Positions 2,655 through 60,327 of a stretch of DNA of 64,000 nucleotides are shown here, one piece after another; position 1 is the stretch's first letter, and the number at the start of each line of letters is the position of its first letter. Source of the stretch: Fervidobacterium pennivorans (GTDB lineage: Bacteria > Thermotogota > Thermotogae > Thermotogales > Fervidobacteriaceae); contig NZ_CP011393.1 of NCBI RefSeq assembly GCF_001644665.1, positions 1,138,001 to 1,202,000 of the forward strand. Reading direction: 5' to 3'. Made by a program: the position numbers and the translations under genes. The notes under the pieces were generated by a model. The model saw only the letters and a list, made by a program, of their open reading frames with translations, had not been told where the DNA came from and made no database searches.

Positions 2655-2843
2655 GTGAAGGTTTTTTACGAGTTTAAAATTTACGAATTCAATGAGTCTA
2701 TGCGTGGTTATGATTTACTGAAGAAACTTGGACTAAATCCCGAGGAACATTTGATAATAGTGGATGGAGAACTTTACACCGAGGATAGGGTTATAAAGAA
2801 GGACAAAGAGGTAAAGATAGTGAAGGTTACAAGTAGCGGATAG
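2655..2843 (+). CDS. Small ThiS/MoaD-like beta-grasp protein
   Basis: A 62-aa protein with the size and strand pattern of ThiS/MoaD sulfur carriers: a short N-terminal strand pair, a helix at RGYDLLKKLGL, then VDGELYTEDRVIKKDKEVKIVKV, which resembles the family's hydrophobic end region. Classic sulfur carriers end in Gly-Gly, which is adenylated and thiocarboxylated; this one ends Ser-Ser-Gly. It could be a tRNA-thiolation carrier of the TtuB kind, or a diverged protein. The start is GTG at 2655; AAGGAG lies at 2637-2642, a rather long 12 nt away. It lies in the same direction as pduL with a 31-bp gap. No partner E1-like or TtuA-like gene is in the window. Confidence 0.65.
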   Translation: MKVFYEFKIYEFNESMRGYDLLKKLGLNPEEHLIIVDGELYTEDRVIKKDKEVKIVKVTSSG

Positions 2844-2913
2844 GAAAAAAGAAAGTTCTCAGTACTGTTTTGCCATTTCGACACAGTAGAGTCTACCGTT
2901 GGGAGGTCGCGGT

Positions 2914-4062
2914 GTGGAGATTACAAGTATTGTAACCTTAGCTTTGGGATTATCGGTAGCAACAAATGTTTTTCTGATATCGAAGTTGAGAAAAAGAACG
3001 AATCTGAACAAGTATCTTTCAACGCAGCTGCAAAAATTTAAGGACCTTTCATCAAAACTCAGGGACATTGTCGTTCAAAGGGAAGAGACGTTTTATAAAA
3101 ATTTGCACGACGTTGCCGTTGGATTTTTGGACGAAGTAGAAAAAAGTTATTTGATAGTTTTTGATGGCGAATATGGAAATGTAGTATCTGTCTTCGGTGA
3201 TACTTCAAACAATATATCAAAGCGAGTAAAAAAGACTGAACTTCCATTCGCAACTCAACGTGTTTATTCTGTCGAGAAAGAAAAATTAAGAGCCCTTTTT
3301 CCGAACTTAACGAAAGATGGTTCTGAGGAAACACAAGTTCTAGTTTCAGATATTTTTATTGGAGGAGAACTTAAAGCCAAACTTATTTTCGAGCGAAAAC
3401 GCAATTTTGTAGAAGAAGAGATGGATACTATTAAAAGTTTAGGTTCTTTCTTTACGTCTTTTATAGCCACTCATAGCTATGTGTCAAACCAAGGAAAGTT
3501 CCAAAAAGACATGATTCTCACAATCATACGTATCCTGGAATATCATGACCCTTACACAAAAGGACACTCAAAGAATGTTGCAACGTTAGCTTCTCTTGTC
3601 GCTGAAAGAATGGGACTTCCTGATGAAATGATTAGAAAAACTTATTGGGCAGCTTTGGTACACGATATCGGAAAGATAGTTATTCCTTCAACGATACTAA
3701 ACAAAGAAGGGAAATTGACACTTGAGGAATTTGAAGTTATAAAAAAGCACCCAGTTTATGGTCATGATTTTCTTTCAACTTCTTCCGAATTGAGGGAACT
3801 TGCTAAATATGTTTATCATCACCATGAACGGTGGGATGGGAAGGGATATCCTTCTGGACTTTCTGGAGAGGATATACCTTTGATATCAAGGATTATAGCA
3901 GTAGTAGATGCTTGGGATGCAATGAGAAGCGACAGACCTTATAGAAAAGGATTACCAAAAGAAATAGCCTTAAAAGAATTAATAGAGCATGCAGGTATGC
4001 AGTTTGACCCAGAGATTGTAAAAATCTTCGTAAGTTTAATCGAAGAACAAGGAATTGGGTAG
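2914..4062 (+). CDS. Membrane-anchored GAF-like and HD-GYP domain protein, probable c-di-GMP phosphodiesterase
   Basis: The N terminus (about residues 3-24) is one hydrophobic segment. It is followed by a short basic and coiled stretch, a GAF-like region (about 60-190) and an HD-GYP domain. The HD pair is in VHDIGK (about 250-251), and the HHE.WDGKGYP signature follows at about 304-313. HD-GYP proteins hydrolyse cyclic di-GMP or related dinucleotides. GTG 2914 is chosen because GGAGGT at 2902-2907 is 6 nt upstream; an in-frame TTG at 2899 would overlap this ribosome site. About 382 aa. Neighbours dnaN and pduL do not suggest a specific pathway. Confidence 0.85.
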   Translation: MEITSIVTLALGLSVATNVFLISKLRKRTNLNKYLSTQLQKFKDLSSKLRDIVVQREETFYKNLHDVAVGFLDEVEKSYLIVFDGEYGNVVSVFGDTSNNISKRVKKTELPFATQRVYSVEKEKLRALFPNLTKDGSEETQVLVSDIFIGGELKAKLIFERKRNFVEEEMDTIKSLGSFFTSFIATHSYVSNQGKFQKDMILTIIRILEYHDPYTKGHSKNVATLASLVAERMGLPDEMIRKTYWAALVHDIGKIVIPSTILNKEGKLTLEEFEVIKKHPVYGHDFLSTSSELRELAKYVYHHHERWDGKGYPSGLSGEDIPLISRIIAVVDAWDAMRSDRPYRKGLPKEIALKELIEHAGMQFDPEIVKIFVSLIEEQGIG

Positions 4063-7118: not shown

Positions 7119-8336
7119 TCAACTATGTAAAATTAAATTTTGAGTAGAAGACGAAAATGTATGATCGATGTTGAATTTCTCGCGCTTTTTCATCATAGCA
7201 AATATCGTCCTTAGCAATTTGTGCGCTACACTCATCATCGCTTTTTTGTATACTAACCCTTGCGCTCGTTTTCTTTGAAAATATGCTTTAAAATATTCGT
7301 TGTGTCTCACTACATTCACACTCATCAGCCAAATTATTCGTCTCAGGTGGGCATTGCCCCTTTTGGATATGCGGCTTTCTCCTTTGTGTTTGCCTGATTC
7401 ATCTACGCTTGGGTCAAGCCCACAATAGGCAATTAGTTTTTTGTGTGTGCTAAATCTTGAAATATCGCCAACTTCGGCAAGAAAATACAGTGCGCTATTT
7501 TCACCAATTCCGTCAATTGACGTGAGTATTTCAACATCTTGATTAAGCGAAGCACATTTGCAATATTCTTTGAGCATCTCATCAAACTCATTAAGTTGCT
7601 GTTGTAAAAATCGAAGTTCCTTGATAGTTTGAATAAGAATCTTCTCTTTCACTGGCCAATACTGAGCGATGGAGTTGTTAGCAAGCTCTTTAAGAGTTTC
7701 TGGGGTAAGTTTTAACTTTCTACCGATTGTTTTTGAAAAGAAAACACGTAGAGAATCAATGGAGGCTTTTTGGATAGCTTTAGCAGAAGGGAAAGAAGAA
7801 AGCAAATCCAAGATAGCATCATTGTAGATGTTGGTCACTTTTTCAAGTTCAGGGAAGAGGAGAGAAAGAAGCTTTTCGATGTCGTTTTTGACTCTTGAGA
7901 TTTGATGAGTGATGCTTTCCTTTTTCCTTGCAATATCCCGAAAATCTGAGTTGAGGAAAGAAGAAGTAGGAAGAAGATGATGGGTATAGAAGACGGTAAG
8001 AGCAATAGAGCGAGCATCGATTTTGTCAGTTTTAGTTTTCCTAAGCCCAACGGGAAGAGATTTGTTAACAAGCAAAGGATTAAGAACGACACAAGAGAAA
8101 TCATTGAGAGAGAGGAAAGAAAGAAGGTTAAGATGGTAACAGCCAGTAGACTCCATAGCGATAAGGACAGAAGACTTAGGGAAAACGGAGAGCTTTTGAA
8201 CAAAGGAGGAAAACCCTTGTTTGGACATATCGAAAGCAGATTCGAAGATGATAGAATTAGGATTTTGGATAGCACAGGCGTTGAACTTATGCTTGGAGAT
8301 GTCAATACCGACAAAGATGGAGAAGTTTTGAGACAT
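7119..8336 (-). CDS. IS110-family transposase (DEDD recombinase), copy 1
   Basis: A 405-aa recombinase. The N-terminal RuvC-like domain carries the DEDD residues: Asp12 in VGIDISK, Glu62 in AMESTG, and Asp104 and Asp107 in KTDKIDARS. A coiled region follows at about 150-260, then the Tnp_20 domain with SIDGIGENSALYFLAEVGD and AYCGLDPSVDESG. These enzymes cut and rejoin DNA at element and target under guidance of an element-encoded RNA. GGAGG precedes the ATG by 7 nt. The stop codon lies inside the left end of the element. The gene is intact and differs from copy 2 at three residues (V/I, L/I and H/Y). Confidence 0.95.
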   Translation of the reverse strand: MSQNFSIFVGIDISKHKFNACAIQNPNSIIFESAFDMSKQGFSSFVQKLSVFPKSSVLIAMESTGCYHLNLLSFLSLNDFSCVVLNPLLVNKSLPVGLRKTKTDKIDARSIALTVFYTHHLLPTSSFLNSDFRDIARKKESITHQISRVKNDIEKLLSLLFPELEKVTNIYNDAILDLLSSFPSAKAIQKASIDSLRVFFSKTIGRKLKLTPETLKELANNSIAQYWPVKEKILIQTIKELRFLQQQLNEFDEMLKEYCKCASLNQDVEILTSIDGIGENSALYFLAEVGDISRFSTHKKLIAYCGLDPSVDESGKHKGESRISKRGNAHLRRIIWLMSVNVVRHNEYFKAYFQRKRAQGLVYKKAMMSVAHKLLRTIFAMMKKREKFNIDHTFSSSTQNLILHS

Positions 8337-53916: not shown

Positions 53917-53944
53917 TTGAAATATCGAAGTTTTTGTGTATAAT
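53917..53944 (+). promoter_or_regulatory. Promoter of the methionine-leader transcript
   Basis: TTGAAA (53917-53922), a 16-bp spacer and a perfect TATAAT (53939-53944) form one of the best promoters in the window. Transcription should start near 53951, about 48 nt before the leader ATG. Confidence 0.8.
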
Positions 53945-53998
53945 TCTTGCCAAAGGGAACATCAATCAAAAAGTAATAAGAAGGAGCAATTTAACCTT

Positions 53999-54109
53999 AT
54001 GAAAGAAATCAGAAGGATGAAAGCTTTAATAATTGATGAATACCAGAGCAACCAAATAAGCATGATGGCTATGATGATGTGGCGTACCGACCGTCCGGTA
54101 TGCCTTTAG
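53999..54109 (+). CDS. Methionine-rich leader peptide
   Basis: A 36-aa peptide. Codons 22-27 read ATG ATG GCT ATG ATG ATG, giving five Met in six residues (seven Met in total), followed by Trp-Arg-Thr-Asp-Arg-Pro-Val-Cys-Leu and TAG. AAGGAG lies at 53981-53986, 12 nt upstream, somewhat distant but the only candidate. The Met run ends just before a set of competing RNA hairpins and a terminator, and the operon downstream makes methionine precursors. The ribosome should stall at these codons when charged Met-tRNA is scarce. The peptide is too short to be an enzyme. Confidence 0.8.
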   Translation: MKEIRRMKALIIDEYQSNQISMMAMMMWRTDRPVCL

Positions 54110-54138
54110 TTTGTTGGAAAGCAAAAGGACGGTCGGGT
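54081..54138 (+). promoter_or_regulatory. Attenuator: competing hairpin and antiterminator
   Basis: GGCGTACCG (54081-54089) can pair with CGGTATGCC (54096-54104), a 9-bp hairpin within the last leader codons. Alternatively CCGACCGTCC (54087-54096) can pair over 10 bp with GGACGGTCGG (54127-54136), which overlaps the 5' arm of the terminator at 54131. The two structures exclude each other, as in classical amino-acid attenuators: a ribosome at the stop codon masks the antiterminator arm and favours termination, while a ribosome stalled on the Met codons breaks the first hairpin. Confidence 0.75.
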
Positions 54139-54162
54139 GAGAAAATCACCCGACCTTTTTTT
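54131..54162 (+). terminator. Intrinsic terminator of the methionine-leader region
   Basis: GGTCGGGTGA (54131-54140) and TCACCCGACC (54146-54155) form a perfect 10-bp stem with loop GAAAA, followed by seven T. It lies 22 nt after the leader stop codon and 22 bp before the IS junction. Confidence 0.9.
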
Positions 54163-54188: not shown

Positions 54189-55406
54189 TCAACTATGTAA
54201 AATTAAATTTTGAGTAGAAGACGAAAATGTATGATCGATGTTGAATTTCTCGCGCTTTTTCATCATAGCAAATATCGTCCTTAGCAATTTGTGCGCTACA
54301 CTCATCATCGCTTTTTTGTATACTAACCCTTGCGCTCGTTTTCTTTGAAAATATGCTTTAAAATATTCGTTGTGTCTCACTACATTCACACTCATCAGCC
54401 AAATTATTCGTCTCAGGTGTGCATTGCCCCTTTTGGATATACGGCTTTCTCCTTTGTGTTTGCCTGATTCATCTACGCTTGGGTCAAGCCCACAATAGGC
54501 AATTAGTTTTTTGTATGTGCTAAATCTTGAAATATCGCCAACTTCGGCAAGAAAATACAGTGCGCTATTTTCACCAATTCCGTCAATTGACGTGAGTATT
54601 TCAACATCTTGATTAAGCGAAGCACATTTGCAATATTCTTTGAGCATCTCATCAAACTCATTAAGTTGCTGTTGTAAAAATCGAAGTTCCTTGATAGTTT
54701 GAATAAGAATCTTCTCTTTCACTGGCCAATACTGAGCGATGGAGTTGTTAGCAAGCTCTTTAAGAGTTTCTGGGGTAAGTTTTAACTTTCTACCGATTGT
54801 TTTTGAAAAGAAAACACGTAGAGAATCAATGGAGGCTTTTTGGATAGCTTTAGCAGAAGGGAAAGAAGAAAGCAAATCCAAGATAGCATCATTGTAGATG
54901 TTGGTCACTTTTTCAAGTTCAGGGAAGAGGAGAGAAAGAAGCTTTTCGATGTCGTTTTTGACTCTTGAGATTTGATGAGTGATGCTTTCCTTTTTCCTTG
55001 CAATATCCCGAAAATCTGAGTTGAGGAAAGAAGAAGTAGGAAGAATGTGATGGGTATAGAAGATGGTAAGAGCAATAGAGCGAGCATCGATTTTGTCAGT
55101 TTTAGTTTTCCTAAGCCCAACGGGAAGAGATTTGTTAACAAGCAAAGGATTAAGAACGACACAAGAGAAATCATTGAGAGAGAGGAAAGAAAGAAGGTTA
55201 AGATGGTAACAGCCAGTAGACTCCATAGCGATAAGGACAGAAGACTTAGGGAAAACGGAGAGCTTTTGAACAAAGGAGGAAAACCCTTGTTTGGACATAT
55301 CGAAAGCAGATTCGAAGATGATAGAATTAGGATTTTGGATAGCACAGGCGTTGAACTTATGCTTGGAGATGTCAATACCGACAAAGATGGAGAAGTTTTG
55401 AGACAT
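54189..55406 (-). CDS. IS110-family transposase (DEDD recombinase), copy 2
   Basis: A 405-aa recombinase with the same DEDD residues and Tnp_20 domain as copy 1. It differs by Ile for Val in ALTIFYTHH, Ile for Leu two to five residues later, and Tyr for His in RFSTYKK. The reading frame is intact, so both copies may be active. GGAGG precedes the ATG. Transcription runs opposite to the methionine operon around it. Confidence 0.95.
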   Translation of the reverse strand: MSQNFSIFVGIDISKHKFNACAIQNPNSIIFESAFDMSKQGFSSFVQKLSVFPKSSVLIAMESTGCYHLNLLSFLSLNDFSCVVLNPLLVNKSLPVGLRKTKTDKIDARSIALTIFYTHHILPTSSFLNSDFRDIARKKESITHQISRVKNDIEKLLSLLFPELEKVTNIYNDAILDLLSSFPSAKAIQKASIDSLRVFFSKTIGRKLKLTPETLKELANNSIAQYWPVKEKILIQTIKELRFLQQQLNEFDEMLKEYCKCASLNQDVEILTSIDGIGENSALYFLAEVGDISRFSTYKKLIAYCGLDPSVDESGKHKGESRISKRGNAHLRRIIWLMSVNVVRHNEYFKAYFQRKRAQGLVYKKAMMSVAHKLLRTIFAMMKKREKFNIDHTFSSSTQNLILHS

Positions 55407-55617
55407 ACTAAAACCTCCTTTCGATTGAATAGGTTAAAAGGCGAGGGCAGGGGCCTGCTGAACCAAACCTCCAGTGTGACGAGGGTTAAAAACCCAACCA
55501 ACTTATCATGGTTAAAGGCAGGCGACAGACTCCTGTAATGGCTTGAAAGCCAAGGGACACTAAGTCGTCCTGCCCTGCCTATTTTTTGACTAAAATATTT
55601 ATACCATACTTTTACGT
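55407..55617 (-). ncRNA. Candidate IS110 bridge RNA region, copy 2
   Basis: Same position and fold as in copy 1. Four base changes distinguish it: two adjacent ones near the transposase ribosome site (copy 1 positions 8359-8360), and two (8403 and 8405) that turn the loop strand CACCCCGGAGG into CACACTGGAGG on the RNA strand. The latter reads ACTGGAGGT, close to this copy's own target ACAGGAGGT. It is a candidate only; expression is not shown. Confidence 0.5.
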
Positions 55618-55630
55618 AGGAGGTGATACC

Positions 55631-57031
55631 GTGAGCAAAATGGATGGTTTTATTGTAGTTAAGTTCGGTGGTTCGAACTTCAAAAACTTTCAAGGCTACT
55701 GCGAAGTAATAGCAAAAATTAAAGAAATACTCGAGTTTGAGAAGGGGAAAACGTTAGTTTTGGTTGTGAGTGCTGCTTATGGTATTACCGATAGATTGAT
55801 TAACGCGGTTAACAACTTTCAAAACATTGATGTTCGAACATTTTTGCGTGAGCTTTACGATCTGCACTCTTCACTATTATCAATGAGTAATGATGGAAAT
55901 TCGCATCAAATAACAGAAGAGCTTAAAGAATTGGAAAACAAAGTCTTTGAACTAGAGAAAATATTCGATGCGGTTAAATTACTTCACAAGGTGCCTGATT
56001 TTGCAAAAGACTTAATCATAAGCTATGGCGAACGTCTTAACGCATATGTGTTGCAAAAATTACTGCAAAAGGAAGGTCTTGATTTTGAACTTAAGATGCC
56101 GGAGGAGTGGATAATAACCGATGGAAAATTTGGGACTGCATCTGTGCTCCTTGAACCCACAAAATGTATGATTGAAAAACGTTTGGATGATTGGAAAAAC
56201 AAGCATTCCATAGTTCCTGGGTTTTATGGTGTATCGAAAGATGGTGATGTAACTCTCTTAGGACGTGGTGGGAGTGATTACACGGCCACTGTTTTGGCAT
56301 ACGCTTTAGATGCTAGTTATGTTATACTTTTCAAAGATGTTAACGGTTTTCTTAGCGGTGATCCGAAAATCGTTGAGAATCCAATATTGCTTGAAAAACT
56401 CAGTTACGATGAACTTGAGGAGCTCTCATATTTTGGTGCAAAGATTGTCCATTCAAATGCAGTGGAACCACTTAAGAACCGTTCAATACCGTTGTATGTG
56501 TGCAGTTTTTCAGGAAATTTCAGCCTCAGCAACTGCACGGTAGTTTCAAATGAAAAACATCTTTCTGAGAAATGTGTAAAGAGTGTTTCGTTCACGGATG
56601 ATGTGGCAGTTGTTCAGTTCTTCGGGGCAAATTTGGGACGGGTTCCAGGTGTATTGGGTGAGATTTCAAAAAGCATGGCACAGTCTGGTTTAAATATTAA
56701 GTTCGTTATCACCTCCCAGACAGCGATAAATCTAATAGTTTCTAAAAAAGACCTTCCGGAAGTTATGAGAGTTGCTGAAACGCTTAGGCTTAGGGAAGTA
56801 GAGAGAATTTCATACAGAACGGACAAAGCACTCGTGGCAGTTGTGGGTTACGGTTTACTCGATACACATGGTATAGCAGCTAAAGTTTTTGGTGCTCTAT
56901 CAAAATGTGAGATAAACGTTGATATGATTTCCGCAGGCGCTTCTGAAGTTTCGATGTACTTCTTAGTTGATGCCCAGAAAGTAAAGGATGCAGTTAGGAT
57001 GGTTCACAGTGAACTTTTTGGGAAGGGTTAA
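55631..57031 (+). CDS. Aspartate kinase
   Basis: A 466-aa monofunctional aspartokinase. KFGGSN (about 11-16) is the lysine-binding start of the kinase domain; GRGGSDYTATVLAYAL and FKDVNGFLSGDPKIV follow. Two C-terminal ACT domains (about 325-395 and 400-460) suggest feedback control by an amino acid. It makes aspartyl phosphate, the first step to homoserine, methionine, threonine and lysine. GTG 55631 follows AGGAGGTGA; the in-frame extension to 55586 is IS sequence. It is the first enzyme gene of the methionine operon. Confidence 0.92.
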   Translation: MSKMDGFIVVKFGGSNFKNFQGYCEVIAKIKEILEFEKGKTLVLVVSAAYGITDRLINAVNNFQNIDVRTFLRELYDLHSSLLSMSNDGNSHQITEELKELENKVFELEKIFDAVKLLHKVPDFAKDLIISYGERLNAYVLQKLLQKEGLDFELKMPEEWIITDGKFGTASVLLEPTKCMIEKRLDDWKNKHSIVPGFYGVSKDGDVTLLGRGGSDYTATVLAYALDASYVILFKDVNGFLSGDPKIVENPILLEKLSYDELEELSYFGAKIVHSNAVEPLKNRSIPLYVCSFSGNFSLSNCTVVSNEKHLSEKCVKSVSFTDDVAVVQFFGANLGRVPGVLGEISKSMAQSGLNIKFVITSQTAINLIVSKKDLPEVMRVAETLRLREVERISYRTDKALVAVVGYGLLDTHGIAAKVFGALSKCEINVDMISAGASEVSMYFLVDAQKVKDAVRMVHSELFGKG

Positions 57032-57058
57032 GAAAACCGAAGAAAGGGGGCGATGCAG

Positions 57059-58474
57059 TTGGACAAGTTGAGAAGCATAGAGGAAATCAACAAGAAAATT
57101 GCCAGAGGTGAAGTTGTTGTTCTTACTGCTGAAGAGGTTGTAAAACTTGCCAAAGAAGAAGGTATTAGAGAAGTTTCAAAAAAAGTGGATGTTGTGACTA
57201 CAGGAACGTTTGCTCCAATGTGCTCCAGTGGGGCGTTTATAAACTTTGGTCACACAATGCCCCCTATGAGAATGGAAAAGATAAAACTTGCTGGTGTGGA
57301 GGTTTACGGCGGACTTGCTGCTGTCGATGGATACATTGGTGCAACGCAAGAGTCGGAATTTGATAAAACGTTTGGTGGTGGGCATGTTATAGAGATGCTC
57401 ATAAGAGGTGAGAACCTCTTACTTGAAGCTTATGGAAAAGGTACAGATTGCTATCCGGGAAAATACTTCAGAGGGTATATCAACAAGGATATGATAAACG
57501 ATTTCTTCCTATTCAATCCGAGAAACGCCTATCAAAACTATGCTGCAGCTACAAATAGTTCTGATAGAACACTTTATACCTACATGGGCAAGCTGTTACC
57601 AAATTATGGCAATGTCAACTATTCAACATCCGGTGAGCTTAGTCCGTTACTTAAAGACCCGAAAATGTTGACAATAGGTATTGGAACAAGGATATTCCTT
57701 GGAGGTGCGGTTGGATACGTTGCTTGGTATGGAACGCAATTCAGAACGCAAGTGAAGGAAAGCGAATATGGTGTTCCACTTGTTCCTGCACGTACACTCG
57801 CGCTGATTGGCGATGCTAAGAAGATGGATTCAAAATTTGTAAAAGGAGCATACTTTAAAAACTACGGTGTGACACTATTTGTCGGAGTTGGTGTTCCGAT
57901 ACCAATTTTAAATGAAGAAATAGCCTACTATGTCAGTCTTTCCAACGAAGAGCTCCACACGGAGATAAAGGATTATTCCAAACTGGAAAGACCTACTGTT
58001 GGTGTAGTAAGTTACGCACAACTGAAGTCAGGTAAGGTTGAAATAAACGGTAAAGATGTAAGAACAACATCACTCTCGAGCTTAGAAAAAGCCAGAGAGA
58101 TAGCCCATACTCTCAAAAAATGGATACTAGCCGGCAACTTCTTTTTGACGAATCCATCAGCAATGCTTGACGAAGAACGAACGTTGAAAAACCTTTCAAA
58201 AGTTGAGCAGATTGTTTCTCATTTGGAAAATGAGAAAGTCGAATATGTTATGGGAGTGCTAAATCCAAAAGATAAACTAAACAAACACAAAGAATGTGTC
58301 AATTGTGGTGCTTGTGTTTCGGTATGTAACTATGAAGCTCTTTATTGGGAAAAGGATAAGGTGAAATTTGATGAGTCAAAGTGCGTATATTGTATGTTGT
58401 GTACTGATACGTGTCCCATTGGACTCAAATTACCGGATGAAAAGTCAGAGACGAAATTTGAAATGCCTTATTGA
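57059..58474 (+). CDS. Homocysteine biosynthesis protein (COG1900/DUF39) with C-terminal 2[4Fe-4S] ferredoxin domain
   Basis: A ~471-aa protein. Residues ~1-380 match DUF39: VVTTGTFAPMCSSGAFINFGHTMPPMRM with conserved Cys, GATQESEFDKTFGGGHVIEMLIRGE, TDCYPG and LGGAVGYVAWYGTQF. The last ~60 residues are a ferredoxin with CVNCGACVSVC and CVYCMLCTDTC. In methanogens the COG1900 protein and a ferredoxin partner make homocysteine directly from aspartate semialdehyde and sulfide; here both parts are fused. TTG 57059 is preferred since GGGGG is 8 nt upstream; ATG 57053 is only 2 nt from it. Confidence 0.85.
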   Translation: MDKLRSIEEINKKIARGEVVVLTAEEVVKLAKEEGIREVSKKVDVVTTGTFAPMCSSGAFINFGHTMPPMRMEKIKLAGVEVYGGLAAVDGYIGATQESEFDKTFGGGHVIEMLIRGENLLLEAYGKGTDCYPGKYFRGYINKDMINDFFLFNPRNAYQNYAAATNSSDRTLYTYMGKLLPNYGNVNYSTSGELSPLLKDPKMLTIGIGTRIFLGGAVGYVAWYGTQFRTQVKESEYGVPLVPARTLALIGDAKKMDSKFVKGAYFKNYGVTLFVGVGVPIPILNEEIAYYVSLSNEELHTEIKDYSKLERPTVGVVSYAQLKSGKVEINGKDVRTTSLSSLEKAREIAHTLKKWILAGNFFLTNPSAMLDEERTLKNLSKVEQIVSHLENEKVEYVMGVLNPKDKLNKHKECVNCGACVSVCNYEALYWEKDKVKFDESKCVYCMLCTDTCPIGLKLPDEKSETKFEMPY

Positions 58475-58502
58475 TAAATTGAAATCTTGGCGAGGGATGT
58501 AC

Positions 58503-59345
58503 ATGGAATTTGAAGGTGAGGGAAAAATGCAAAAGAAACACCATGGATATGTTGGGCAATTTGATAAATTTGAAGAAATCCAAATGAGTCAAAGAAAATT
58601 CAAAGTTGTTAAGAGATTTTACAGAGATTACTACTCTGAAAGATTCACAAGATTTTACGTTAAATACAAATACACCGACTTAGCAATAGGGGTCGATAAA
58701 TTCAACCTTCAGATGCTTGAAGGAGTTTATGATTTAGTTAGGAACCACTACAAAGAGCTTGAAAGATTAAGAGAATTCAACAAGGAGTTCTTTGAATCTT
58801 TCAAACCTGTTGATGTTTCTCTTTTTCAACCAATAACAGATATAATCCTCGCAATGGCTGAAGCGTCTAAATTAGCAGGAGTAGGACCGATGGCTGCCGT
58901 TGCTGGAGCTTTTGCTGAATCGGTTGGAAAGTATCTGTTGAAGATACACGGAAGCAAAGAGGTTATTGTAGAAAATGGTGGTGATATTTATTTAAACGTT
59001 CGAAGTGAGGTAAGAATAGGAATTTTTGCAAATTTTGATAGTGAATTCAACAAACTCTCTATTATTTTAGGACCTGGTGAATATGGGGTATGTACTTCTT
59101 CTGGAAAAATAGGCCATTCGGTAAGTTTTGGGAATGCCGATGCAGCTTGTGTAATAGCAAGGAGTGCAGTGATTGCTGATGCTTTCGCAACGAAATACGG
59201 GAATTTAATAAAAAGCGAGAAAGACTTTGAAAAGGTCTTGGGGCTTGTCAAGGATGATATCGATGAAAAAAGATATATATTGGGTGTATTGTTTGTTGTT
59301 AAGAATAAACTACTTGTTTACGGAAATGTGAGACTTTCAGTTTAG
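58503..59345 (+). CDS. UPF0280 (COG2122, ApbE-like) protein
   Basis: A ~280-aa protein with KFKVVKRFYRDYYSERFTRFYVKYKYTDLAIGVD at the start and GVGPMAAVAGAFAESVGKYLLKIHGSKEVIVENGGDIYL in the middle, typical of UPF0280, a family related to ApbE flavin transferases. In methanogens a COG2122 gene was linked to homocysteine synthesis together with COG1900; this operon repeats the association. ATG 58503 follows GAGGG by 6 nt. Longer in-frame starts lie inside the previous gene. Confidence 0.85.
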   Translation: MEFEGEGKMQKKHHGYVGQFDKFEEIQMSQRKFKVVKRFYRDYYSERFTRFYVKYKYTDLAIGVDKFNLQMLEGVYDLVRNHYKELERLREFNKEFFESFKPVDVSLFQPITDIILAMAEASKLAGVGPMAAVAGAFAESVGKYLLKIHGSKEVIVENGGDIYLNVRSEVRIGIFANFDSEFNKLSIILGPGEYGVCTSSGKIGHSVSFGNADAACVIARSAVIADAFATKYGNLIKSEKDFEKVLGLVKDDIDEKRYILGVLFVVKNKLLVYGNVRLSV

Positions 59346-59385
59346 TTTTAGTTTTGTAGATTGTAAAACTTTGGAGGTGGGGAAG

Positions 59386-60327
59386 TTGAAGGTTACGGAA
59401 ATGGTCAAAGAAAGAAGGATTATATCCATAGAGATAATCCCACCAAAACGTGGCGAGGATGTTGAAAATATCTACAGAACCCTGGATAAGCTTATGAACT
59501 ATGACATTTCATTTATAAGTATTACAAGGCATCCTGTCGAAGTAGATTACATTGAATACGAAGACAAAATTGTTAAGGTTCATAAGGTCAAAAGGCCTGG
59601 AACACTTGGCTTAACTGCTGCGTTGATGAATAGATACAGAATTGATGTTGTCCCTCATCTTATTTGTGTTGGGATGAGTAAATTTGAAATGGAGGATATG
59701 TTGATAGACCTGGATATAATGGGGGTTGATAATGTTTTCGTTATACGTGGTGAAACTGCCTCAAGTGTTGAGAATTATAACAAGGGAGATTACAAGTACG
59801 CTGTTGAGCTGGTAAGACAAATAAAAGACCTGAACATGGGAAAATACCTCTACACATCAGCTAAGCCGACAAATTTTTGCGTAGGGGTGGCGGGATACCC
59901 AGAAAAGCACTACGAATCCCCAAACCTGGAAACTGATTTGAAATTTCTCAAGCAAAAAGTAGATGCAGGAGCGGGTTATATCATCACACAAATGGTCTTC
60001 GATGCACAAGTTTATAAAGACTTCGTTGAACGTTGTCGAAGTATAGGCATAAATGTCCCAATAATTCCAGGAGTGAAACCTGTAGTAAGCAAAAGTTCAG
60101 TGTTTAACATTCCAAAGAAATTTTTTGTGACCATACCTCAAAGGTTTGTTGAGGCAATCGATAATGCGAAGACAAAGGAAGAAGAGTTTAAAGTAGGAAT
60201 ACGTTTTACAGTCGAGCTTGTTGAAAAGCTTATCGAATACAGTGCTCCAGGTATACACATTTTTACAATGGGGCGTGGAGAGGAGAGCTGTGAAGTAATT
60301 AAGCATACTCAAAGCATACTCAAATGA
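59386..60327 (+). CDS. metF: 5,10-Methylenetetrahydrofolate reductase
   Basis: A ~313-aa flavoprotein of the MetF family: ISIEIIPPKRGEDVENIYRTLDKLMNYDISFISITRHP, GVDNVFVIRGE, FCVGVAGYPEKHYESPN and YIITQMVFDAQVYKDFV. It makes 5-methyltetrahydrofolate, the methyl donor for homocysteine to methionine. TTG 59386 lies 6 nt after GGAGGTG. It completes the aspartate and methyl branches of the operon. Methionine synthase itself is not in the window. Confidence 0.92.
   Translation: MKVTEMVKERRIISIEIIPPKRGEDVENIYRTLDKLMNYDISFISITRHPVEVDYIEYEDKIVKVHKVKRPGTLGLTAALMNRYRIDVVPHLICVGMSKFEMEDMLIDLDIMGVDNVFVIRGETASSVENYNKGDYKYAVELVRQIKDLNMGKYLYTSAKPTNFCVGVAGYPEKHYESPNLETDLKFLKQKVDAGAGYIITQMVFDAQVYKDFVERCRSIGINVPIIPGVKPVVSKSSVFNIPKKFFVTIPQRFVEAIDNAKTKEEEFKVGIRFTVELVEKLIEYSAPGIHIFTMGRGEESCEVIKHTQSILK

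Follow-up and report, generated by a model that had tools for sequence, protein, structure and literature searches.

Does the short open reading frame with a run of methionine codons that lies ahead of aspartate-to-homocysteine genes in Fervidobacterium pennivorans act as an amino acid sensor, and if so, what does it sense? Our analysis of the window, meaning the whole 64,000-nucleotide stretch of contig NZ_CP011393.1 in which the locus lies, together with a comparison across 103 Thermotogota genomes, provides a framework in which this frame very probably encodes the leader peptide of a transcription attenuator that works through the ribosome and responds to charged Met-tRNA, a reading that derives from comparison of sequences.

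The leader, its helices and the interrupted operon

The elements that the first-pass annotation had described here, a promoter, a 36-codon open reading frame, a methionine run, a 9-bp hairpin, a 10-bp antiterminator and a 10-bp terminator with seven T, were all found where it had put them, and are given below with the insertion and the genes that follow.

53917-53944, + strand: predicted sigma-70-type promoter TTGAAA-16-TATAAT (-35 TTGAAA at 53917-53922, -10 TATAAT at 53939-53944, spacer 16 nt), called by consensus scan alone with 11 of 12 positions matching
53981-53986, + strand: leader Shine-Dalgarno AAGGAG, 12 nt 5' of the ATG, read from the sequence
53999-54109, + strand: putative leader peptide frame MKEIRRMKALIIDEYQSNQISMMAMMMWRTDRPVCL*, 36 codons and TAG
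54062-54079, + strand: putative sensor codons ATG ATG GCT ATG ATG ATG; Met runs are likewise placed in 37 Thermotogota leaders
54081-54104, + strand: hairpin 1:2 (GGCGTACCG/CGGTATGCC, arms 54081-54089/54096-54104), predicted to sequester the antiterminator arm, with a counterpart in most relatives
54087-54096, + strand: antiterminator 5' arm CCGACCGTCC (segment 2), supported by shuffles and covariation
54127-54136, + strand: antiterminator 3' arm GGACGGTCGG (segment 3), overlapping the terminator 5' arm by 6 nt
54131-54162, + strand: intrinsic terminator (segments 3:4) of 10 bp with a 5-nt loop and T7 (arms 54131-54140/54146-54155, T7 54156-54162)
54189-55619, - strand: IS110-family insertion of about 1.43-1.44 kb, inside the aspartokinase ribosome-binding site
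54189-55406, - strand: IS110 transposase (NF033542, above cut-off)
55619-55626, + strand: aspartokinase Shine-Dalgarno GGAGGTGA, restored where the IS ends on the right (compared with genome G004)
55631-57031, + strand: aspartate kinase (TIGR00657, AA_kinase and ACT domains), GTG start at 55631 placed by comparison with G004
57053-58474, + strand: COG1900 homocysteine synthase (HcyBio; PF01837, E=2e-144) with a C-terminal 4Fe-4S domain
58368-59345, + strand: COG2122/UPF0280 protein (PRK04334 from residue 79 on, below cut-off)
59371-60327, + strand: methylenetetrahydrofolate reductase, MTHFR (PF02219, TIGR00676)

Pairs comparable to the -35 and -10 elements were seen in several relatives. Within the window, a Met-run frame joined to a terminator occurs once, and a scan for leaders rich in Trp, His, Cys, Ile, Leu or Thr codons returned nothing comparable there, while a few other residues gave single, incidental-looking hits. 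The 2.06-Mb genome contains 31 ATGATGATG loci, and the leader arrangement was present at one of the 30 examined, the window's own. The pattern ATGATGNNNATGATG by itself was set aside as too common across the phylum.

The genes that the annotation had placed beyond the leader, encoding aspartokinase, the COG1900 homocysteine synthesis protein and MTHFR, are all present and share their operon with a COG2122/UPF0280 gene, but they do not adjoin the leader directly, an IS110 element standing in between. The listed COG2122 frame overlaps COG1900, and its real start probably lies further in. In methanogen homocysteine synthesis the COG1900 enzyme is an L-aspartate-semialdehyde sulfurtransferase (PMC12068725). 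The genome holds three further full copies of the IS110 element and one fragment, and of these three full copies one lies within the window at 7122-8336, its protein being 99% identical. An uninterrupted form, the empty site, is found in G004 (locus L035), where the leader is joined to aspartokinase as ...TTTTACAGGAGGTGATACCGTG; in the window, the left flank ends in ACAGGAG and the right side restarts with GGAGGTGATACCGTG. Comparison of these flanks with G004 indicates that the IS entered the aspartokinase ribosome-binding site, which has since been re-formed, and as judged from these sequences the ancestral layout is a leader directly 5' of aspartokinase-COG1900-COG2122-MTHFR.

In the window strain the insertion may therefore have uncoupled the attenuator from its operon, and the leader could be a relic that yields a short terminated RNA while the operon has been transcribed from elsewhere since IS110 arrived. 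The 1.43-1.44 kb of intervening sequence with its antisense transposase favours this reading, as does the possibility that untranslated IS sequence undergoes Rho-dependent termination; against it stand a leader and terminator that are intact, a + strand in which no intrinsic terminator was detected inside the IS, and the aspartokinase Shine-Dalgarno re-formed at the junction. We regard a relic as a serious but doubtful possibility, one that is limited to the window strain and leaves the mechanism in relatives unaffected.

Beyond MTHFR, the window and five relatives from its genus, G001-G004 and G008, encode a Serine dehydratase alpha-chain family protein (PF03313; 60420-61733 in the window), which is perhaps a cysteine desulfidase and would then supply sulfide to COG1900.

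Recurrence of methionine leaders in the Thermotogota

Methionine leaders number 37 in 36 of the 103 Thermotogota genomes, one genome (G021) having two, and are spread over eight families (f1, f2, f5, f7, f8, f9, f10 and f11); the count is a lower bound, set by which genes were inspected. They precede aspartokinase/COG1900 operons (19), metQ (14), metH-aspartokinase operons (3) and metY (1), and COG1900 itself is present in 35 of the 103 genomes. Family f1 keeps the gene order aspartokinase-COG1900-COG2122-MTHFR, and twelve f1 genomes, the window's included, carry the leader and terminator directly 5' of aspartokinase, with the methionine run reading MMAMMM in the window, G001-G004 and G008, MMPMMM in G009 and G010, and MMIM in G012, G013, G014 and G019. 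The search of relatives that the first-pass annotation had proposed thus recovered leaders in seven of the nine COG1900-bearing genomes of the window genus and its sister genus g2 (the window aside), in each of the four such genomes from g3 and g5, and in further families. Outside f1, a leader lies 5' of aspartokinase or COG1900 in G021, G025, G030, G033, G034, G072 and G100, and in f2 genus g9 (G082, G083 and G085), where the operon starts further upstream with metH (TIGR02082), the leader is found at the head of this longer operon. No methionine leader was found with the operon in G005, G024, G088 or f2 genera g7 and g8.

Genome G005 (L042) belongs to the window genus and has the aspartokinase-COG1900-COG2122-MTHFR operon with neither methionine leader nor terminator directly upstream; an occurrence of ATGATGCCTATGATG elsewhere in that genome lies within an ordinary gene and was rejected. 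In the f2 metH-aspartokinase-COG1900 operon, a protein of about 190 aa without an NCBIfam match is encoded 5' of metH (L110, 8126-8689; homologues in L108, L109, L111 and L112), and is possibly tied to methionine synthase function.

A covariance model (R1), built from eight operon leaders only, was run over the 103 genomes, and its new matches were methionine leaders 5' of metQ (G059, G050 and relatives), of metY (G101) and of the f2 metH operon (G085), with protein families confirming the targets as MetQ, O-acetylhomoserine sulfhydrylase and MetH. As metQ, metY and metH are unrelated genes with only methionine in common, the leaders before them give independent support to the methionine reading. 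A lenient upstream scan found a methionine leader with a terminator at 14 of 29 metQ loci (in G021, G037, G042, G044, G046-G050, G057-G060 and G062, with G045 and G061 as exceptions) and at 0 of 29 metY-like loci whose upstream sequence could be read; the metY leader of G101 was found via R1, and its contig begins close by. Weak R1 matches in G002, G003, G009, G010, G038, G055 and others were discarded as plain terminators or acidic coding stretches lacking a methionine leader. In the draft assembly of G060 (L288; 87% complete), stops break metQ into two pieces while the methionine leader is intact.

Short open reading frames are common in any window, and an ATG-rich one might have come to lie by chance beside the ordinary terminator of an upstream region. 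This explanation is confronted by recurrence of the arrangement before methionine genes in 36 genomes, by the outcome of one and the same lenient scan at metQ and metY-like loci, and by a control on COG1900 loci of other phyla (Spirochaetes, Bacteroidetes, Firmicutes, Archaea and others; 1.73 Mb of strand), which gave a single match, in strict and lenient scans alike, that is not upstream of the operon. Among 80 named loci, the sole other positive was a Mesoaciditogaceae MAG, itself a member of the Thermotogota. In our view the recurrence refutes a chance origin, to which we give almost no credence.

Across 21 tabulated leaders, the predicted peptides are about 23-46 aa long, their residues beyond the methionine run differ among genera, and the stop codon precedes the T-run by 45-58 nt. 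A start codon and a Shine-Dalgarno-like sequence are present in nearly all 21, the chosen start being uncertain in a few (the automatic choice is doubtful in G001, G002, G008 and G014). Methionine has a single codon, and its arrangements, all in frame, include MMAMMM, MMPMMM, MMIM, MIM, MMM, MNMWM and MMNTMMM. This varying spacing favours codons over a fixed RNA motif, and as the peptides share little besides in-frame methionine codons, the features common to the leaders are codons and architecture. The last methionine codon lies 5-8 nt from segment 2 in most leaders and 14-18 nt from it in the Thermosipho-like group.

These shared features also bear on the possibility of a riboswitch, an RNA that itself binds SAM, methionine or some other ligand and in which the ATG run is part of the aptamer. 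A stretch, ATGATGGCTATGATGATG, is nearly invariant in DNA among Fervidobacterium-like genomes, and a riboswitch, too, could work through such a terminator/antiterminator pair. Across families, however, the primary sequence is not kept, whereas the in-frame ATGs, the Shine-Dalgarno with its start and the stop are; the codons just 5' of the methionine run contain 0 in-frame stops across the 21 leaders, the two remaining frames having 39 and 26, and no conserved folded domain was seen 5' of the run. Rfam searches of the window, at gathering and at permissive thresholds, returned no family and no credible sub-threshold match in the region; weak matches to the L20 leader, an sRNA and other Rfam entries fell far under the gathering scores and were rejected. 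The SAM-I covariance model (RF00162) had no match in the window or in the f1 genomes searched, and the T-box model had none in the window. Direct ligand binding is in our judgement extremely unlikely.

Alternative helices and the proposed switch

Segment 54087-54096 has two possible partners, one inside hairpin 54081-54104 and the other at 54127-54136, and the antiterminator in turn has nucleotides in common with the terminator. Computed energies for the hairpin, antiterminator and terminator are -14.8, -22.2 and -20.3 kcal/mol at 37 C and -7.7, -10.5 and -11.4 kcal/mol at 65 C, which indicates that the alternatives are similarly stable, also near the growth temperature of a thermophile. Compared, by an ungapped search, with 1000 dinucleotide-shuffled versions of the sequence from the methionine run to segment 3, the window antiterminator was better than expected (p=0.005), and p<0.05 was reached in 28 of 33 leaders tested (19 of the 21 tabulated and 9 of 12 further ones). 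The five leaders that were not significant in this ungapped search are those of G030, G025, G057, G048 and G037; on inspection, a bulge or internal loop interrupts the antiterminator pairing of G025 and G030, and such a search does not score interrupted pairing. Hairpin 1:2 is clear in the window and f1, and by ungapped search weaker or unresolved in G030 and some others. In the Thermosipho-like genomes, so named by impression, segments 2 and 4 are nearly identical, ACTGGCCGCC occurring twice. Intrinsic terminators were found 5' of the first structural gene at the leader loci.

The pairs between 54087-54096 and 54127-54136, whose covariation the first-pass annotation had left to be checked, do covary in an alignment of eight sequences (A2), where 96.6% of antiterminator cells are paired, against less than 50% in slid controls, and four antiterminator pairs have changed on both sides, although many of the covarying changes may trace to one or two events within a small clade. 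In the antiterminator, alignment column 75 is the partner of column 33, and in the terminator it is that of column 103; the three covary jointly, as T-A-T in four sequences and C-G-C in the other four, so that the shared base keeps its partner in both helices, as expected if the helices are exclusive, and this triple change may be a single historical event.

The geometry fits classical attenuation as modelled for the established trp and his systems, an analogy from which we infer the following course. Once transcription has started behind the promoter (53917-53944), a ribosome would begin the 36-codon leader. When charged elongator Met-tRNA is scarce, it would stall on the methionine codons, mainly the last three (54071-54079), and with one of these in its A site would reach about 54085-54090 and cover the 5' arm of hairpin 54081-54104; segment 54087-54096, most of it left uncovered, could then pair with 54127-54136, blocking the terminator and letting the polymerase read on. 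The first two methionine codons (54062-54067) lie too far upstream for opening the hairpin and may only add sensitivity. When Met-tRNA is plentiful, the ribosome would proceed to the stop codon (54107-54109), where it would cover about 54092-54120 and thereby hide the 3' half of segment 2; 54131-54155 could then fold into the terminator. If the leader carried no ribosome at all, hairpin 54081-54104 would form and transcription would end. The recurrence, the covariation and the methionine-gene targets support the earlier proposal of ribosome-mediated attenuation by methionine, of which leader translation, ribosome stalling and a change in read-through are the inferred parts.

Methionine is an odd signal for such a device, since its shortage also lowers initiator fMet-tRNA and starves initiation. 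Strong starvation could prevent initiation on the leader and so favour termination, and the switch is therefore predicted to respond to moderate rather than extreme methionine limitation. A switch that works nonetheless would raise the question of how the charging of elongator tRNA is told apart from that of initiator tRNA, and the initiation problem may explain both the rarity of methionine leaders and their several methionine codons. The same fall in initiator charging lends some weight to a reading in which the leader is translated and terminates, yet senses the general state of translation, through initiation rate, fMet supply or arrest by a Met-rich nascent peptide, rather than the charging of elongator Met-tRNA. 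A nascent-peptide stall is compatible with the sequence; unlike in arrest peptides, however, the flanking residues are not conserved, the targets seen are methionine synthesis and uptake genes only, and the constant feature is the presence of multiple methionine codons beside hairpin 1:2. We therefore judge a general translation signal highly unlikely, and retain elongator Met-tRNA charging as the quantity sensed.

Known methionine sensors and the exchange with SAM-I riboswitches

Attenuation by leader peptides is best known in Proteobacteria and less so in Actinobacteria and Firmicutes. The Thermotogota leaders resemble the trp, his, leu, thr and phe attenuators in having a leader frame with regulatory codons, exclusive hairpins and a terminator before the structural genes, and differ from them in the methionine codon, in their targets (aspartate-to-homocysteine genes, metH, metY and metQ) and, at some loci, in a segment 2 that occupies the loop and 5' arm of hairpin 1:2. 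A Met-specific T-box likewise couples antitermination to Met-tRNA charging, but there a conserved RNA, of which the window contains no match, binds the tRNA directly.

The first-pass annotation knew of no described Met leader peptide of this kind in the Thermotogota, which holds within the literature searched, a full-text search (most subscription papers falling outside its scope) having returned none; in other bacteria, Campylobacter jejuni and Streptomyces lividans, methionine leaders had already been proposed. For MetL of C. jejuni, which precedes metBA, its authors proposed antitermination on Met-tRNA shortage (PMC3847290), and ribosome profiling gave a start-site signal (PMC11955535). It too is a short frame with three methionine codons, and a short RNA ends just past its stop, whereas its length of 20 aa, its restriction to C. 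jejuni, C. coli and C. doylei and its target genes set it apart (PMC3847290); the resemblance is one of function, and an origin of the Thermotogota leaders independent of MetL seems likely. The proposed metL leader of S. lividans lies upstream of metNIQ, where its authors describe no typical intrinsic terminator (PMC8079986); it precedes a methionine importer, as Thermotogota leaders do metQ, but is leaderless and has scattered methionine codons (PMC8079986). The mechanism itself is thus known, and as far as the literature was searched, what is new is the phylum and how widely the leaders are spread within it, together with their connection to the COG1900 pathway and the tandem arrangement with SAM-I. 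Such a regulon would assign methionine control to COG1900/COG2122 homocysteine synthesis across the whole phylum.

The SAM-I riboswitch (S-box, RF00162) occurs in 12 of the 103 genomes, all in f10, a family that is Petrotogaceae-like by impression. In some of these it controls the same genes by premature termination, but it senses SAM through an aptamer, and neither the window nor any of the f1 genomes searched contains it. SAM-I lies 5' of aspartokinase in G065 and G074 and 5' of metQ in genus g34 (G066-G071), and in G072 (L105, reverse strand, about 2720-3026) SAM-I with its terminator is followed by a methionine leader with a terminator of its own, both upstream of one aspartokinase gene. 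The presence of SAM-I, of a methionine leader or of the two together on the same genes speaks for a leader that reports methionine status, and these swaps and the tandem are a natural experiment in which two sensors can be compared on shared targets. We lean towards a broader view in which Met-tRNA leaders are the predominant methionine sensor of the Thermotogota and probably an old one, attached by lineage to homocysteine synthesis, metH, metY or metQ, swapped with SAM-I, and placed in series with it in G072; if so, the G072 operon would be read only when SAM and Met-tRNA are both low.

In G065 (L103, 2682-3010), the SAM-I riboswitch precedes a second terminator, for which GGCATAAC/GTTATGCC may form an antiterminator, and a Lys-rich short open reading frame, MSDMYNMKINNSIKSNKHKKVLIIGIT, which is possibly a leader for another amino acid.
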